From NCBI RefSeq assembly GCF_004923255.1, contig NZ_QYRT01000006.1, forward strand, positions 1-64,000: a stretch of 64,000 nucleotides of DNA. Reading direction: 5' to 3'. The position numbers and the translations under genes are program-made. The notes beneath the pieces were generated by a model. The model searched no databases. It saw only the letters and a list, made by a program, of their open reading frames with translations, and was not told the DNA's origin. This document shows, one piece after another, positions 26,591 to 34,162 of this stretch (position 1 is the first letter of the stretch; every line of letters starts with the position of its first letter). The DNA is from Subtercola vilae (GTDB taxonomy: Bacteria > Actinomycetota > Actinomycetes > Actinomycetales > Microbacteriaceae).

Positions 26591-27367
26591 TCAGCGCACC
26601 ACCGACGACGTCGCCCGCACCGACGGCAGCCGGTGGTGATTCACCACGACCGCCCGCACCGCCTGCGCTCGCCGCCGCAGCCCCCACACCGTGACCCGTA
26701 CGAGCGACTCGCGAACGATCGACCCACTCATCTTCGACTCGCCGACGGTTCGCTCGGTGAATGTGATGGGCACCTCCACCACCCGCAGCCCCGCCTGCAG
26801 CGCCCGCCACACCAGATCGAGCTGAAAGCAGTAGCCGTGTGACTCGACAGCCGTGAGCCCGATGCGTTCGAGTGCGCTCGAACGGTACGCCCGAAAGCCG
26901 CCGGTGGCATCTTTGACAGCGATTCCGAGCGCAAGCTGCGCGTACAGGTTGCCGCCCCGGCTCAGCAGTTTACGTTTGGCCGGCCAGTTCTCCACTCGGC
27001 CACCCTCGACCCAGCGGGAGCCGAGCACGAGGTCGTGGTCGACGAGTTGCGCGAGCAGCTCGGGCAGGGCTTCGGGGTGGTGCGAACCGTCGGCGTCCAT
27101 CTCGACGAGCGCCGTGTAGCCGCGGGCCAGGCCCCACTCGAACCCCGCGAGGTAGGCCATGCCGAGCCCCGACTTCTCCGAGCGGTGCAGAACGCTGATC
27201 GCAGGGTCGGCGTGGGCCAGTTCGTCGGCCAGGCGGCCAGTGCCGTCAGGCGATCCATCGTCGACGATCAGCACGTCGGCGGTGCCGGTGGCCAGCACCC
27301 GTTCGACGATGGGTCGAAGGTTTTCGAGCTCGTTGTAGGTCGGAATGATCACGAGTGCGTCGCGCAT
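26591..27367 (-). CDS. Polyprenol-phosphate mannosyltransferase-like GT2 (Ppm1/DPM1-like)
   Basis: The 258-residue protein is a DPM1-type GT2: [21 protein letters not shown], then [17 protein letters not shown] and [17 protein letters not shown] with the DxD (DAD) motif, and [22 protein letters not shown] in two parts. The C-terminal part lacks extra membrane domains, so it is the soluble/peripheral form. It would transfer a sugar (mannose in characterised members) from a nucleotide sugar to polyprenol phosphate, making the lipid-linked donor used by GT39/GT-C enzymes. It lies 69 bp downstream of the GH8-sortase gene in the same direction. It is therefore probably the donor supplier for the GT39 enzyme in the glycan locus. 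Confidence 0.87.
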
Positions 27368-27436: not shown

Positions 27437-29077
27437 TCACGCCGAGGTCTTGGTCGCGAACACCACCACGTTGTCGAGGTAGTGCCCGTACGAGTCGTCG
27501 AACACCCCGCCGCAGGTGATGAGCCGCAGCTGGGCGTCGGGCGTGGGCCCGTACACCTGATCGGTCGGAAACTGTTGCTTCGGCGCCTGCAGCTCGCTGT
27601 TCACGGTGTAGGTCACCGTGCTCGCATCTGACAGCGTCACGGTGACCTTCGCCCCCGGTTTCAGCGACGACAGCGTGTAGAACACGGCCGGCCCGATGGC
27701 TGAGTCGATGTGCCCCGCGATGACGGCGGGCCCGGTGTCGCCCGGCACCACCCCGTCTTTGTACCAGCCGGCCGAGGCGAAATCGGTGGGCGGGAGGATG
27801 GCGCCGGTCTGATCGCGCGTGAGCGACTCGAGCCCCGAATCGACCCCGATGTCGGGTATCTGCACGCGCACCGGTGTCAGCCCCTCAGCTTTCTTCGAGC
27901 TGGTCGAACTCACCGACGTCGCCTGGGGGTCTTGGTTGGCCCCCACGCCCCCCGAGGCCGAAGCCAGCGGAGGGCACGAGCCGAGGTTGGCCGTCTCGAG
28001 CAGCTGCATCGAGAGGGCCGTCCACGCCGCGCCATAGTATGTCGGCGTGGTCTGATCGAGCGTGTCGGCTGTCGCCAGATCGGCGTCGGATTTGTCGGGC
28101 TGGGCCGCTGCCGCGTAGGCGGCAGCCCGCGCGGCGTAGCTCACGGGATTGGTGTCGGTCGTTGTCGCGGTGCCGCCGAGGTCGAGCTGTGCCTTCAGTG
28201 GGTCTGAACGCGACAGCGTCGACACCAGTTTCGCCGCGAGAGCGGTGTCGGCCGGGTCGCACGACTCGGCGTACCTGATCGGCAGGCGAGCCGCGTCGTA
28301 GCTGTATTCCACGGTGTTCGCGCTGCTGTCACCTCGTGGTGCGGGCATTTGGTCGACGGTTCCGTCAGCGTGCACCTGTGCCCAGTCGGGCGGCAGCGCA
28401 CTCTTCGTGAGCAGTGTCGTTGTGACCGCACGAGACCCAGCGCTGAGCTCGGCCCACCGCGGGTCGCCCGAACTCGCTCCCAGCTCGCTGAACGCGGCGG
28501 GCGACGCGTACGACGGGTTGTAGGCGTACGGCGAGCTGGCCGCGGCCCAGAGGCCGGGCAGCAGGATGCGCCCGGTCGCCGTGGTCACCGTCAACTTGTC
28601 GAGAATCAGCCCGCCCAGCTTGTCGCCGCTTGCTATGAGCGCAGGGTCGGAGAATTTCGTTCCCGCTTCGACGAGAGCCCGGGCCATGTCGAGGTCGGCA
28701 TCGCTAGCGGGCTCGGAGTCGACAACTTTTCCGTCTTTCCAATTCCACGCCATGAGGCCGTCTGGGCGTTGCAGGTTGGTCTGGGTCCAGCTCCAGATCG
28801 AGTCGAACGTGGCCTTGTCGTTCACTCCGACGGCGAGCAGCATGCCGTAGGCCTGCCCTTCGCTCACCGTGTCAGACCCCTGGTCGCGCCGAACGACGCG
28901 GCCGGAGTCGACGTACTCCGTCAGAAACCGGGTGGCGACCTGATTGGCGCCGGCCACGCCGGTGGGTGCCGCTGTGGTGGTCGGTGCCGGGGCGGGTGCC
29001 GCCGTGCATCCGGCCAGCGTCAGACCGACGGCGACCGCTACGGCACCCAACACTGCTGCCGGGGTGCGCCGCATCAT
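27437..29077 (-). CDS. Lipoprotein with GH8 glycosidase domain fused to a class F-like sortase domain
   Basis: The 546-residue protein begins with a lipoprotein signal (lipobox LAGC near residue 24). A GH8-type (alpha/alpha)6 barrel at about residues 45-370 shows Glu73 in VSEGQAYGM, Asp126/128/130 in SDADLDMA and YDAARLPIR. After a Ser/Gly linker comes a sortase domain (about 400-546): VQIPDIGVDSGLESL, His456 in AGHIDS and Cys522 in LITCGG. No Arg follows the catalytic Cys (it reads GGVFDDSYGHYLDNVVVFA), although sortases normally use one. GH8 enzymes cut beta-1,4-glucans or related polymers; sortases cleave sorting signals and transpeptidate. Both active sites would lie outside the membrane. 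The start codon overlaps the DUF4397 stop. Confidence 0.87.
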   Translation of the reverse strand: MMRRTPAAVLGAVAVAVGLTLAGCTAAPAPAPTTTAAPTGVAGANQVATRFLTEYVDSGRVVRRDQGSDTVSEGQAYGMLLAVGVNDKATFDSIWSWTQTNLQRPDGLMAWNWKDGKVVDSEPASDADLDMARALVEAGTKFSDPALIASGDKLGGLILDKLTVTTATGRILLPGLWAAASSPYAYNPSYASPAAFSELGASSGDPRWAELSAGSRAVTTTLLTKSALPPDWAQVHADGTVDQMPAPRGDSSANTVEYSYDAARLPIRYAESCDPADTALAAKLVSTLSRSDPLKAQLDLGGTATTTDTNPVSYAARAAAYAAAAQPDKSDADLATADTLDQTTPTYYGAAWTALSMQLLETANLGSCPPLASASGGVGANQDPQATSVSSTSSKKAEGLTPVRVQIPDIGVDSGLESLTRDQTGAILPPTDFASAGWYKDGVVPGDTGPAVIAGHIDSAIGPAVFYTLSSLKPGAKVTVTLSDASTVTYTVNSELQAPKQQFPTDQVYGPTPDAQLRLITCGGVFDDSYGHYLDNVVVFATKTSA

Positions 29078-30039
29078 TTGCCCCCGGTTGCCAGTCGGTT
29101 CGAGCGACGAACGAGCAGGATGGCGAGAGCCAGCGCAGCGAGCATGCTGCCGCTGAGCGCCAGACCCACGGTGTCAGAAACCCGAGCACCGGTCGCGCCG
29201 GCCACGTGCTCTGCGGCCCAGCCGCCACCGGTCTGTATGCCGCCGGTGGGCAGGGCTGCGCCGACACTCGCCGCGTCGGTGACCGACTTGATGGTCACAC
29301 CGCCTGAGGCGTTGTCGAGCACGAACAGTGATGACACGGTTCCTGCGCCCAGCGTGATCTGCGTGGTCGAGGCTGCCGCGCCCGCGCCGGTGAGCGCGAG
29401 GTTCCACGGCCCGGCTGGAACGCTGGCGTAGTTCGTCGCGGTGCCCTCTTTCGCGTCGGTCGCGATGACCGCGCCCGCGCTCGTGGCGATGCTCACCGAC
29501 GGAACCGTGGTCGACGCCTGAATGACCCGAACGCGCGACTGGCCATCGGTCGGGGTGGTGAGGTCGTCGGGGAACACCGCTGTGGTCAGCTTGGCGTTGG
29601 TGCCGATGGCGGCCACCGTCATCGGCTGCCCCTGCGTGACATTGATCGAGGTCTGGATGAGCGGGTGGGCCATGTCGCCCCCCGCCGGAACCATCGCCAC
29701 CACGTAGGTGCCCTGCGGTAGCGCCATGTAGTCCGACACCTGACCGTAGATCACGTTGGTGAGGGACTCGAGCACCTGGCCGCCGGAGAGCGCGGTGAGC
29801 TGAATATCGACGGCCTTCGTGTCGGGCGAGAGATGGGCGAGCCGGATCCAGCCGGTGTTCGCGGCGGCAGCCACCGGGGCTGCCGACTGCGATGCGGCTT
29901 GCGAGGCGGCTTGGGGTGCGGCTGTCGCCGCCTGGGCCGACGAGGCCCCGAAGACGGTGAGCAGGAGCCCTGCGCTGACGGCCACCGTTGCGGCGGCCAC
30001 CTTCGACCAGGTCGAGCGGTTCTCGTGTACTGAAGTCAT
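29074..30039 (-). CDS. DUF4397 exported protein with C-terminal membrane anchor
   Basis: The protein has 321 residues from the start chosen at MTSVHENRS, which is followed by a good signal peptide (AAATVAVSAGLLLTVFGASS, AQA cleavage). DUF4397 beta-rich repeats follow (GWIRLAHLSPDTKAVDIQL; SRVRVIQASTTVPSVSIAT). The C-terminus has a Gly-rich stretch with LPTGG (about residues 263-267), then a hydrophobic segment and RRSNRLATGGK. This resembles a cell-wall sorting arrangement, but LPTGG lies about 25 residues before the membrane segment, further than usual. The gene overlaps the GH8-sortase start by four bases. It may be the substrate or scaffold for the sortase domain. Confidence 0.82.
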   Translation of the reverse strand: MTSVHENRSTWSKVAAATVAVSAGLLLTVFGASSAQAATAAPQAASQAASQSAAPVAAAANTGWIRLAHLSPDTKAVDIQLTALSGGQVLESLTNVIYGQVSDYMALPQGTYVVAMVPAGGDMAHPLIQTSINVTQGQPMTVAAIGTNAKLTTAVFPDDLTTPTDGQSRVRVIQASTTVPSVSIATSAGAVIATDAKEGTATNYASVPAGPWNLALTGAGAAASTTQITLGAGTVSSLFVLDNASGGVTIKSVTDAASVGAALPTGGIQTGGGWAAEHVAGATGARVSDTVGLALSGSMLAALALAILLVRRSNRLATGGK

Positions 30040-30058: not shown

Positions 30059-32101
30059 TCAGTTCTGGGGGGTGGGGAGGAGGCCGGTCGGCTCACCGAA
30101 GGCGAAGGTGACCAGCACACCGTCTGCGGTCTGCGTGAGCGTCGGGGCGATGGTGTTGGTGTTGGTCAGCGAGGAGAAGTACGCCGAGACGTCGGCTGCA
30201 GCGAGGGAGCCGGCAGGCGTGGGCTGCCCGTTGATCGACGAGATGAGGATCTGGCGACGAGCGGCGTTCTGCTCGCCGTCGACCAGCGGAAAGTCGGAGA
30301 CCGTCACGCTCGACTGGGCGAGCAGCTGACCGAGAGCCAGAATGCCGCGCGAGTCGACCTGGCCACCCGTCAGCAGGTCTTTGGCCGATGGTGCGAGGGT
30401 GAGCCGCGTGTTCGCCGCCAGCTGGGTACCGGCGGAGGAGCGTGCCTTGCTCGCGGTGTCGGCATCGGTCGTGGCCTGCGTGATGCCGTCAGGGTCGATC
30501 TTGCGAACGTCGACCTGCTGGTCGCCCAGCCCGAAGCTGGCCACCACGACCGAATTGTCGACGGCCTGGTTGACCTGCGGAAAGGTCGACAACAGCGAGC
30601 GCATCGAGTTCGTGGTGATCACGTAGTCGGAGTCGCGCCAGCCGTTTGGCGAGAGCGCCTGCACCGCGGGGTCGGTGTCGACCTTGTAGTACCACGTGAC
30701 GTTCTGGCGGGCGAAACCGGCGTTCACCGAATCGACCCACATCGAGTCGTCGACGATGAGGCGTGACTCGCGGCCCACATTCGCGTCGATCCAGGCCTGC
30801 GCTTCGCGGGTCGGCTGGTCGAGGTCGGCCAGAAAGAATCCGCGCAGCTGCGTGCTCCAGAGCGGTGCCGCCACGACTCCTGCAGCCACTGTGGCGACAA
30901 TGACGACCGCGGCCGTCACCCGCCTGGCGGGGGTGGCCTTCGACGTACGAAGCAGCTTCTGTACGGCGTTCTGAACCACGCCCACCACCAGAAGTGCGCC
31001 GAACGGCAGCAGGGCGATGATGTACGGCACCGGAAGGTAGCCGCCGGGCCGGAACATGAATGCCACCAGCGCGAGCAGCAGAATCGCGAAGGGGCGCAGG
31101 CGCCGGATGAACAGGGCCACGATTCCCGCCACGACACCGGCCACGATGAAGACCGGGTCGAGCTGCCACCACATCGAGAATGTCTTATTGATGAGGCTGT
31201 TCGGGTCGCCGATCGACCCACTCGACTGGCGGTTCGACAGCTGAAAGCTCAGGCCGTCGATGAGGCTGGCATGTCCGGCGCCCGAGAAGACCTCGCCCTT
31301 CACCGCGGCAAGCAGAACGTACGTCAACCCGATCAGCGCGAGTACGCTCGCTGCGACAGAGAGTGTGTAGCGCCGGGTTGCCGGGTGGGCGTTTCGCCAC
31401 ATCAGCCACGCCACGAGTGGCAGCGCGAGCAGAAAGGTCTCTTTCGAGAGAACGGCGATTCCGAGGCAGGCAGCACTGCCGATGAAGCTGGCGAGCTGCT
31501 TGCGGTGGCTCATGGCCAGAATGATCGAGCCGATGAGCCAGGGCGTGGCGATGTTGTCGAGGTACACCGAACGGTGAAACTGCAGGGCGAGGGGTGACAG
31601 CGTGAACAGCAGCAGCGTGATGGCGGCGGCCGGTCGGCTGAATCGCAGTCGGCGTGCCAGCACCCAGAGCAGTGCGGCGCTGACAATGACGCTGACGACC
31701 ATGAACTCGCGGCCGGCCAGCACCGCGGTGTCATAGCGATCGAACGCGCCGGTCAGTTTCGCGTACCCCGCGAGCTGCAGCCAGCCGAGCGGCGGGTGGT
31801 CGTACCAATAGGTGTAGTGCGTCAATTCGCCGAGCTTGTCGATGGCCCAGGCCTGAGCGGTGTACGTGCCTTCATCATCGATGCGCTGGGGCGACCCGGC
31901 GAGGTTGACGATCTGCGCCACCGCGCCGAGCACGAGTACGGGCACGAACCAGACGGCTGAGCGACGGCTGCGCCGAATGCGGTCGGTGAATCGTGATCGC
32001 CGCCGCGGTGGCTTTGCGGCCCCCGTCGCGGCGGTGGTGGTCTCGGTGGCGTTGTCGATGTCAGAGGGTGTGTCTGAGGGGCGTTCGAGGGTGCTGGTCA
32101 T
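30059..32101 (-). CDS. GT39-like membrane glycosyltransferase (ArnT/PMT superfamily)
   Basis: The 680-residue protein has a disordered Thr/Ala-rich N-terminus and then about 10 membrane helices up to residue ~430. The first external loop carries an acidic motif (QRIDDEGTYTAQAWA), and another loop has FHRSVYLDNIATPWL; both are typical of GT-C enzymes using polyprenyl-phosphate sugars. The C-terminal ~230 residues are an extracytoplasmic domain without membrane segments. It would transfer a sugar from a lipid carrier to a glycan or protein outside the membrane. It is embedded in the glycan locus: its start overlaps the GT2 stop by four bases, and DUF4397 starts 19 bp after it. Confidence 0.85.
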   Translation of the reverse strand: MTSTLERPSDTPSDIDNATETTTAATGAAKPPRRRSRFTDRIRRSRRSAVWFVPVLVLGAVAQIVNLAGSPQRIDDEGTYTAQAWAIDKLGELTHYTYWYDHPPLGWLQLAGYAKLTGAFDRYDTAVLAGREFMVVSVIVSAALLWVLARRLRFSRPAAAITLLLFTLSPLALQFHRSVYLDNIATPWLIGSIILAMSHRKQLASFIGSAACLGIAVLSKETFLLALPLVAWLMWRNAHPATRRYTLSVAASVLALIGLTYVLLAAVKGEVFSGAGHASLIDGLSFQLSNRQSSGSIGDPNSLINKTFSMWWQLDPVFIVAGVVAGIVALFIRRLRPFAILLLALVAFMFRPGGYLPVPYIIALLPFGALLVVGVVQNAVQKLLRTSKATPARRVTAAVVIVATVAAGVVAAPLWSTQLRGFFLADLDQPTREAQAWIDANVGRESRLIVDDSMWVDSVNAGFARQNVTWYYKVDTDPAVQALSPNGWRDSDYVITTNSMRSLLSTFPQVNQAVDNSVVVASFGLGDQQVDVRKIDPDGITQATTDADTASKARSSAGTQLAANTRLTLAPSAKDLLTGGQVDSRGILALGQLLAQSSVTVSDFPLVDGEQNAARRQILISSINGQPTPAGSLAAADVSAYFSSLTNTNTIAPTLTQTADGVLVTFAFGEPTGLLPTPQN

Positions 32102-33573
32102 GACGTGCCTCCTGCCTGCTGAAGTGCGAATGAGGGTGCGGCCGACGCGGTGGTCTCGTCAGAGCGGTGTGCTCCGGTGTGTTCGGTCTTCTCCCAGCTG
32201 TTGATTCCGCGAACCTGCCGGATGACCGACCTGATCGCCGCGAGGGCGAGAAACACCTGGTACGGCAGAAGACCGAGCACGAGCTTCACGTAGTCGCGAA
32301 CCCGAACTTTCTTGTCGTAGACCCGGCCGAACTCGGCGAGTCCCGTGGCTTCGACCGCTAGCGTGATGATGGTGGGCACGAGGGGCAGAAACGTCACCAG
32401 CGCGACGATGGTGGGCACCTTCACAAAGATGATGAGCAACAGCGAGAATGGGATGAGCATGCCGGTCGCTGCCTGCAGGAACGGCATGGCCAAGAGGTAC
32501 CGGGCGAACATCCGCTGCTTCAGGGTGGGCAGTTTGTGCCACTCGCCCTTGCCGAGAACTTGAAGAAAGCCCTGGTTCCAGCGCGTGCGCTGCTTGTAGA
32601 GCGACGTCATCGAGCCGGGGGTCTCTTCGCGGGTCACGAACTCGGGGTTGTACGCCACGACGACTTTCGCCTGGGCGCTCGAGAGTCGAACGCCCAGCTC
32701 GCAGTCTTCGGCCAGGCAGTTCGCATCCCATCCCTCAGACCAGTCGAGCCACTCTTTGGTGACGAACACTGTGTTGCCGCCGAGAGGAATGAACTTGCTC
32801 TTCGCGTGAAAGTGCAGGCGAGACCGAAACCAGAAGTAGTACTCGAGCACGTTACGAAGCGCCCACCAACTGCTCTCGAAGTTCATCAGCTGAACGCCGC
32901 CCTGAACCACGTCGGCGTCGGTCTCCTGAAACTTCGAGTCGACCACCGTGAGCAGGCGAGGGTGCACCTCGTCTTCGGCGTCGAACACACCGACGACGTC
33001 ACCGCGGGCCGACTTCAGGGCCAGGTTCAGTGCCTTCGGCTTGTTCTTGGGCACGCTGTCGTCGACGATGACCCTGATGAGGTCGGGGTGCCGCTCGGCG
33101 GCGGCGCGGGCCACCGCTTCGGTACCGGGGTCGTCGTGGCCGACAATCGCGATGATCTCGAAGTCGGGGTGGTCTTGCTGGGCCAGCACGTCGAGCGTCT
33201 CACCCAGCACCTCCTCTTCGTGCCGCCCCGGAACGAGCAGCGTGAACGAGTGGGCCGCGGGCCTCGGGTTCGCCGAGAACTGCGTGCGGGTGAGGCTCGA
33301 GGGCGAGCGCCAGGCGTGCAGCATCCACCACAGCGTGGTTGCTGCGATCACGGTGAGCAGCACTGCCACGAGCATCAGGCTGGTGTAGCCGATCCACTCG
33401 CCGGGGCTCCAGTGCGGGAGAAACCCGAAGGCCGACACGGGGTCACCGGGGGTGATCTGCGACGGGTCGGGGCGGTTGGGGTCGATCACCGAGTCGGGGC
33501 TCGGCAGGGGGGCGGGGGTAAGCAGAGGCGCAGGGCCCGCGGGCGCGGGCGTAGCGTCTGTCACGAATGTCAT
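32098..33573 (-). CDS. Membrane GT2 polysaccharide synthase (cellulose-synthase-like)
   Basis: The 491-residue protein starts at the ATG giving MTFVTDATPAPAGP; the longer upstream frame has no coding character. One membrane region lies near residues 60-85, then a cytosolic GT-A domain with the processive D,D,D,QxxRW pattern: VIVDDSVPKNKPKALN, FDAEDEVHP, LAEDCELGVRLS and QRTRWNQGFLQ. Three or four C-terminal membrane segments follow. This architecture matches synthases for linear beta-linked polysaccharides (cellulose, hyaluronan and relatives). It lacks a PilZ domain. With GH8, GT39 and the sortase downstream, it is the probable core synthase of the locus. The sugar is unknown. Confidence 0.87.
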   Translation of the reverse strand: MTFVTDATPAPAGPAPLLTPAPLPSPDSVIDPNRPDPSQITPGDPVSAFGFLPHWSPGEWIGYTSLMLVAVLLTVIAATTLWWMLHAWRSPSSLTRTQFSANPRPAAHSFTLLVPGRHEEEVLGETLDVLAQQDHPDFEIIAIVGHDDPGTEAVARAAAERHPDLIRVIVDDSVPKNKPKALNLALKSARGDVVGVFDAEDEVHPRLLTVVDSKFQETDADVVQGGVQLMNFESSWWALRNVLEYYFWFRSRLHFHAKSKFIPLGGNTVFVTKEWLDWSEGWDANCLAEDCELGVRLSSAQAKVVVAYNPEFVTREETPGSMTSLYKQRTRWNQGFLQVLGKGEWHKLPTLKQRMFARYLLAMPFLQAATGMLIPFSLLLIIFVKVPTIVALVTFLPLVPTIITLAVEATGLAEFGRVYDKKVRVRDYVKLVLGLLPYQVFLALAAIRSVIRQVRGINSWEKTEHTGAHRSDETTASAAPSFALQQAGGTS

Positions 33574-33610: not shown

Positions 33611-34162
33611 CTAGTCAGAGAGCAGGGCGCCCTGGGGTTCGTATTCGAGTACGACAGGGCGGGCATCCGGCATGGCCTCGGCCATCGGGTGAGCCGGCGC
33701 CGTGCGGAAGACCACGAAGTGATAAGCCGCAAAACGGAATGCTGTGCCGAGAACAAGACCGATCACGTTGCCGGAGATGTTGTCAGCGAGCTGCGAGGTG
33801 AATCCAAGCAGGTAGTGCGAAACGAACAGACAGCCCGTGGCGATGAGCAACCCGAGGAGGTTCACGACGGCGAAGAGAAAGCCCTCTTTCAGGGCGTTCG
33901 ATGAGCGTTGGTTTCGAAAAGTGAGATACCGGTTGCCAATCCAGGCGACAACCATCGAGATGCTCACCGAAACGACTTTCGACCAGATCGGTGAATCGCT
34001 GAGAACGGTCGCCCGCAGGGCGTTGTACACAGCGAAGTCGACCACGAAGGCGATTCCGCCGATCAGCCCGAACGACGTGAGTCGTCGACCAGATCGGCGC
34101 AACCGCACAGCCAGACGTTTCACCCTCTCGGGTGAAGACGACGGTTCTATGGTGATTGACAT
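33611..34162 (-). CDS. GtrA-family membrane protein
   Basis: The 183-residue protein has four membrane helices: LTSFGLIGGIAFVVDFAVYNALRATV in two parts, then KVVSVSISMVVAWIGNRYLTF with the characteristic NRYxTF motif, then two more helices. GtrA-like proteins are linked to translocation of lipid-linked sugars or are components of glycan assembly. It is the first gene of the leftward glycan operon, 37 bp before the GT2 gene. The C-terminal tail (PVVLEYEPQGALLSD) is soluble. Flipping the donor used by the GT39 enzyme is a reasonable inference. Confidence 0.87.
   Translation of the reverse strand: MSITIEPSSSPERVKRLAVRLRRSGRRLTSFGLIGGIAFVVDFAVYNALRATVLSDSPIWSKVVSVSISMVVAWIGNRYLTFRNQRSSNALKEGFLFAVVNLLGLLIATGCLFVSHYLLGFTSQLADNISGNVIGLVLGTAFRFAAYHFVVFRTAPAHPMAEAMPDARPVVLEYEPQGALLSD

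Follow-up and report, generated by a model that had tools for sequence, protein, structure and literature searches.

A lipoprotein joining a GH8 glycosidase to a class F sortase in a putative surface-glycan operon of Actinobacteria

One reading frame of Subtercola vilae appears to encode both a glycan-cutting enzyme and a transpeptidase behind a single lipid anchor. A preliminary description of the window (the whole 64,000-nucleotide stretch of contig NZ_QYRT01000006.1 that was analysed) had proposed that a GH8 glycosidase is fused here to a class F-like sortase, and that glycan processing might thereby be coupled to attachment. The question is whether such a protein is genuine and, if so, what the two halves would do side by side. 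The features discussed below are collected in Table 1.

Table 1. Features of the fusion gene and its neighbours, with positions in the window
Feature	Position	Strand	Basis
DPM-like GT2, putative polyprenyl-phosphate-hexose synthase	26591..27367	-	profile and PDB searches
GH8-class F sortase fusion gene, 546 aa	27437..29077	-	Pfam, NCBIfam, AF2, Foldseek
Class F sortase domain, residues ~400-543	27449..27880	-	Pfam, NCBIfam, AF2, Foldseek, alignment
Sortase site codons	H456 27710-27712; R518 27524-27526; C522 27512-27514	-	
Flexible linker, residues ~371-399	27881..27967	-	pLDDT < 50 at 377-393
GH8 (alpha/alpha)6 domain, residues ~43-370	27968..28951	-	Pfam, AF2, Foldseek, alignment
GH8 site codons	E73 28859-28861; D126/128/130 28688-28702; D261 28295-28297	-	
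Lipoprotein signal peptide, lipobox LAGC at residues 21-24 (Cys24)	29006..29077	-	sequence
DUF4397 protein, 321 aa (inner ATG); Sec signal, two beta-sandwich domains, C-terminal sorting-like signal	29074..30039	-	
C-terminal TM helix of DUF4397, then basic tail RRSNR	29086..29157	-	structure model
Putative sorting motif region PTGGIQTGGG of DUF4397	29218..29250	-	alignment
GT39/PMT-like GT-C membrane glycosyltransferase	30059..32101	-	
GT2 polysaccharide synthase (QRTRW, AED motifs), inner ATG as start	32098..33573	-	
GtrA-family membrane protein, putative polyprenyl-phosphate-sugar flippase	33611..34162	-	

The fusion protein and its two active sites

The gene is a single uninterrupted reading frame, and its ATG start overlaps the stop of the upstream DUF4397 gene by 4 bp. 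The N-terminal half matched Pfam GH8 (PF01270, E=1.6e-38, residues 56-357) with 133.1 bits, above the cut-off of 24. The C-terminal half matched Pfam Sortase above the gathering cut-off (E=4.9e-20, residues 406-543) and the NCBIfam model for class F sortase, NF033748, where the score of 172.4 bits exceeds the cut-off of 166 (E=5.1e-51, profile placement 396-543). No carbohydrate-binding module was found in the fusion protein by Pfam. An AF2 model built from a 56-row alignment had a mean pLDDT of 88.8; the GH8 and sortase domains were confident while residues 1-35 and 377-393 were disordered. The top Foldseek matches, for the GH8 half, were CMCax (1wzz, E=1.4e-18, target-normalised TM 0.80) and BcsZ (9b87, 4.3e-17, TM 0.78). 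Sortases 6bwe (1.4e-8), 5k9a and 2xwg ranked after the endoglucanases of cellulose synthesis with TM 0.52-0.60, and a PDB profile search using the sortase half alone revealed no closer sortase class. Reading frame, profiles, model and fold search thus all bear out a GH8 enzyme and a class F sortase in one protein, and the possibility, allowed for in the preliminary description, that either domain would prove to have another fold was not borne out.

The residues named previously were found at the numbers given, E73 in SEGQ, D126, D128 and D130 in ASDADLD, H456 in AGH and C522 in LITC, as was the lipobox, and an anchored lipoprotein with both domains facing outwards is supported. The second GH8 carboxylate, the base, had been overlooked; it is D261, and the SYDA motif that contains it lines up with SYDA in GH8 enzymes of solved structure. 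The GH8 assignment is based on the Pfam score, the (alpha/alpha)6 fold and the presence of both the catalytic Glu and the base Asp, and the class F assignment on the NF033748 score together with the catalytic His and Cys. E73, D126, D128, D130, D261, H456, R518, C522 and N536 were invariant in all rows of the 56-row alignment that cover them. By sequence both active sites are intact. One GH8 relative (L034, 2-1006) appears to have lost the base, with FGSVAAR in place of the SYDA Asp, and is possibly an inactive enzyme.

With regard to the catalytic Arg that follows the Cys, alignment by eye placed the invariant Asn536 at the Arg position of the class E copies in the same genome, and the invariant R518 lies at position C-4. 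This pattern (window 27470-27526) was present in nearly all the class F matches that were read and is therefore probably a feature of the class.

The closest solved relatives of the GH8 half are BcsZ and CMCax (3qxq, 9b87, 1wzz), endoglucanases of cellulose synthesis with which it shares the fold, the catalytic motifs and the location of the gene beside a GT2 synthase. It differs from them in being lipid-anchored, Gram-positive and fused to a sortase, the identity is 23-27%, and its 131.3 bits against the BcsZ equivalog NF008305 lie below the cut-off of 299. Listeria PssZ, considered as a further GH8 analogue, was discarded as it belongs to GH126. The sortase half resembles P. acnes SrtF and A. 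missouriensis SrtF1-4 (PMC13251363) in its NF033748 match and conserved His and Cys but, unlike these, is fused to GH8 behind the lipobox of the latter and is located inside a glycan operon.

Distribution and origin of the fusion

The best 80 loci were kept from 203 candidates, and GH8 and sortase were found in one frame in 19 of these, namely in Subtercola lobariae, a Herbiconiux MAG and 17 Microbacterium-type genomes. The Subtercola lobariae genome (G004), from the same genus, has a full-length fusion with 66% identity. The presence of fused orthologues in separately assembled genomes shows that the fusion is real; an assembly error joining two genes, against which the preliminary description had cautioned, and a frameshift are both ruled out as its origin. 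Adding the window and a more distant lineage, G169, gave 21 fused rows out of 75 on a quick tree. The Subtercola, Herbiconiux and Microbacterium rows formed one group (SH-aLRT 91) with G169 apart on a long branch, and the fusion state changed at least twice. A presumed relative of G169, G302, also looks fused, with frameshifts. Two records in the set are probably wrongly labelled. A locus titled Planococcus sp. (Bacillota; L099) contains the operon and falls among Microbacterium relatives on the tree, so it is likely mislabelled or contaminated, and one titled as a Spirosoma sp. MAG (L125) has an actinobacterial-type GH8 by itself and is likely misbinned.

In most other loci GH8 and SrtF are separate adjoining genes whose stop and start overlap or abut (TGATG, GTGA and TAG-ATG junctions). 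The fusion is thus not unique to Subtercola vilae but is one state of a conserved GH8/sortase gene pair. The split proteins commonly each have their own lipobox or N-terminal hydrophobic segment, so that a change of anchor still leaves the sortase bound to the outer side of the membrane. One locus, G015, was at first taken as fused because both matches gave the same frame length, but its sequence contains a single in-frame stop.

It could be argued that the two halves work independently and that their fusion, a read-through between coupled neighbouring genes, is neutral and replaces only the sortase's own anchor. The G015 junction, where the GH8 stop directly precedes an in-frame sortase ATG so that one codon change would fuse them, agrees with this, as do the disordered linker and the fact that most of the operons are unfused. 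However, the state changed more than once, and a divergent clade comprising 20 rows has retained the fusion together with conserved residues at both active sites. We consider the neutral explanation rather unlikely, though to be taken seriously.

The operon and the candidate sortase substrate

The gene order is GtrA - processive-type GT2 - GT39-like - DUF4397 - GH8 - SrtF - DPM-like GT2. Five core genes were found together in 69/80 loci and all seven in 43/80; contig ends truncate several of the remaining loci. The order is kept from Microbacteriaceae to Cellulomonadaceae and Promicromonosporaceae, and the stretch from GT2 to SrtF is also present in Micrococcaceae and Propionibacteriaceae. A QxxRW-type motif is a signature of processive synthases, and QRTRW was present in the GT2 in 71/73 rows. 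The GT2 did not match Pfam Cellulose_synt and reached just 18 bits against the CelA/BcsA model TIGR03030, below the cut-off of 699.1, so the polymer of the operon may not be cellulose. Bcs cellulose synthase operons (BcsA/BcsZ) are alike in combining a processive-type GT2 with GH8. They differ in that no Bcs accessory subunits were recognised here and in the additional GtrA, DPM-like GT2, PMT-like GT-C, DUF4397 and sortase.

The GH8 half might instead degrade beta-glucan from plants or microbes outside the cell, as a nutrient source or in colonising plants, and lie beside the sortase by chance. GH8 is an endoglucanase family and many carriers belong to plant-associated genera (Curtobacterium, Frigoribacterium, Plantibacter). 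Set against this are the tight, conserved linkage to the GT2 synthase and polyprenyl-sugar genes, the membrane tether, the lack of a binding module by Pfam and the association of the closest solved relatives with synthesis, which together make external digestion very improbable.

The glycosyltransferases may alternatively act on protein. GtrA, the DPM-like GT2 and the GT39-like protein would then glycosylate DUF4397, GH8 would trim or release that glycan, SrtF would anchor DUF4397 and the GT2 would make no free polymer. The GT39-like protein does weakly resemble protein O-mannosyltransferases, and the DPM-like GT2 matches the dolichol-phosphate-mannose synthase 5mlz (1.6e-35). This explanation is made improbable by the conserved QxxRW motif of the GT2 with a BcsZ-like GH8 alongside, and by Blastococcus L112, where GT2-PMT-GH8 is kept without DUF4397 or SrtF. 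As some loci have GH8 but neither of these genes, coupling of GH8 to the sortase is not obligatory. Class F sortases are also far more widespread than the operon-type GH8, and in four genomes DUF4397-SrtF pairs were seen that lack a GH8 partner. Taken together, these observations suggest that two modules have been joined. A rearranged cluster in G043 and G123 (L033 2780-12402 and L074 2643-12469) contains DUF4397, SrtF, GtrA, GT2 and a 31%-identical GH8 in another gene order. A Cellulose_synt GT2 was seen in addition in G123, PMT in G043 and GT4 in L033. Recurrence of the same kinds of parts in a different arrangement argues for a functional link.

The structure model of the DUF4397 protein comprised two beta-sandwich domains, a disordered stretch and a C-terminal helix at residues 295-318. 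Within the disordered stretch P264, T270 and G271 were invariant among 33 aligned sequences. All 74 loci scanned contained the motif PxGG[VI]xTGGG or one closely similar to it; the scanning pattern itself required xTG, so it is the alignment that constitutes independent evidence. DUF4397 proteins beside SrtF in the absence of GH8 end similarly, with VPQGSVNTGGG, APDGSLDTGGG or LPTGGIQTGGG. The TM helix and basic tail were kept in 19/19 readable fused loci and missing in 45/55 others, a contrast that, with about two fusion origins, does not amount to a statistical test. A canonical sorting signal is therefore not universal in the operon. The motif itself is kept even where the TM helix and basic tail are missing (loci L075-L154), the tails in Curtobacterium and Frigoribacterium being short and possibly amphipathic.

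The genome contains four Sortase-domain places, two of them assigned to class E on inspection by eye. It has one DUF4397 protein, and no second class F match was found in it. A fold search with DUF4397 returned Ig-like beta-sandwiches (the PepT extracellular domain and fimbrial proteins) and a weak match to the AlgF C-terminus, with no function named. Because the C-terminal motif and the TM helix with basic tail occur in every readable fused lineage, DUF4397 is the likely candidate substrate of the SrtF half. In A. missouriensis two proteins encoded beside srtF similarly have a signal peptide, TM helix and basic tail without a classical pentapeptide (PMC13251363).

A combined role at the cell surface

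The best explanation, to which as a whole we would give a probability of about 0.55, is that two adjoining genes of a surface-glycan operon conserved in actinobacteria have here become one. The operon would make a surface polysaccharide, GH8 would trim it in the manner of BcsZ, SrtF would anchor DUF4397 and the fusion would put both enzymes on one lipid anchor. In such a scheme the GT2 synthase would polymerise and export a beta-glycan, and the DPM-like GT2, GtrA and GT39-like protein would add sugars via a polyprenyl-phosphate donor. The lipid-anchored GH8 half would cut or trim nascent or mis-threaded chains, as BcsZ and CMCax do with cellulose. The sortase half would cleave DUF4397 between T and G of PxGG[VI]xTGGG and link it to the cell wall, where the anchored protein may retain the glycan on the cell surface or give it order. 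Fusion would give one tethered protein on the outer face instead of two, so that the hydrolase and the anchoring enzyme stay side by side in a one-to-one ratio.

The earlier suggestion that glycan processing is coupled to attachment is therefore partly upheld. It fits the gene content of the operon, in which a likely sortase substrate accompanies a GT2 synthase and polyprenyl-sugar glycosyltransferases, but the attached item is most likely the DUF4397 protein and attachment of glycan found no support. GH8 enzymes are inverting and hydrolytic, which makes it unlikely that the GH8 half transfers glycan. A variant in which GH8 opens or trims the glycan while the sortase joins DUF4397 to an amine on the glycan or its carrier, with PxGG[VI]xTGGG as a class F recognition motif, would create a covalent protein-polysaccharide surface layer; we regard this as very unlikely.

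Each part of the system belongs to a known family. In the open-licence literature searched, no description was found of their conserved combination or of the recurrent fusion. The preliminary description knew of no characterised enzyme of this architecture. The papers searched contained nothing relevant on DUF4397 with sortase, a GH8-sortase fusion, or sortase with GtrA and cellulose synthase. Protein databases may list the GH8-sortase architecture.

The physiological roles of class F sortases were described as unknown in a 2026 paper, and deletion of all four class F genes of A. missouriensis gave no phenotype (PMC13251363). The operon links a single class F sortase with a specific partner protein, a specific candidate motif and a specific pathway for glycan, and the fused state speaks for hydrolase and sortase working in one location. 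The role of a class F sortase thereby becomes directly testable in culturable bacteria. The arrangement also suggests a way in which Gram-positive cells, lacking an outer membrane, might retain at their surface a polysaccharide made by a synthase.
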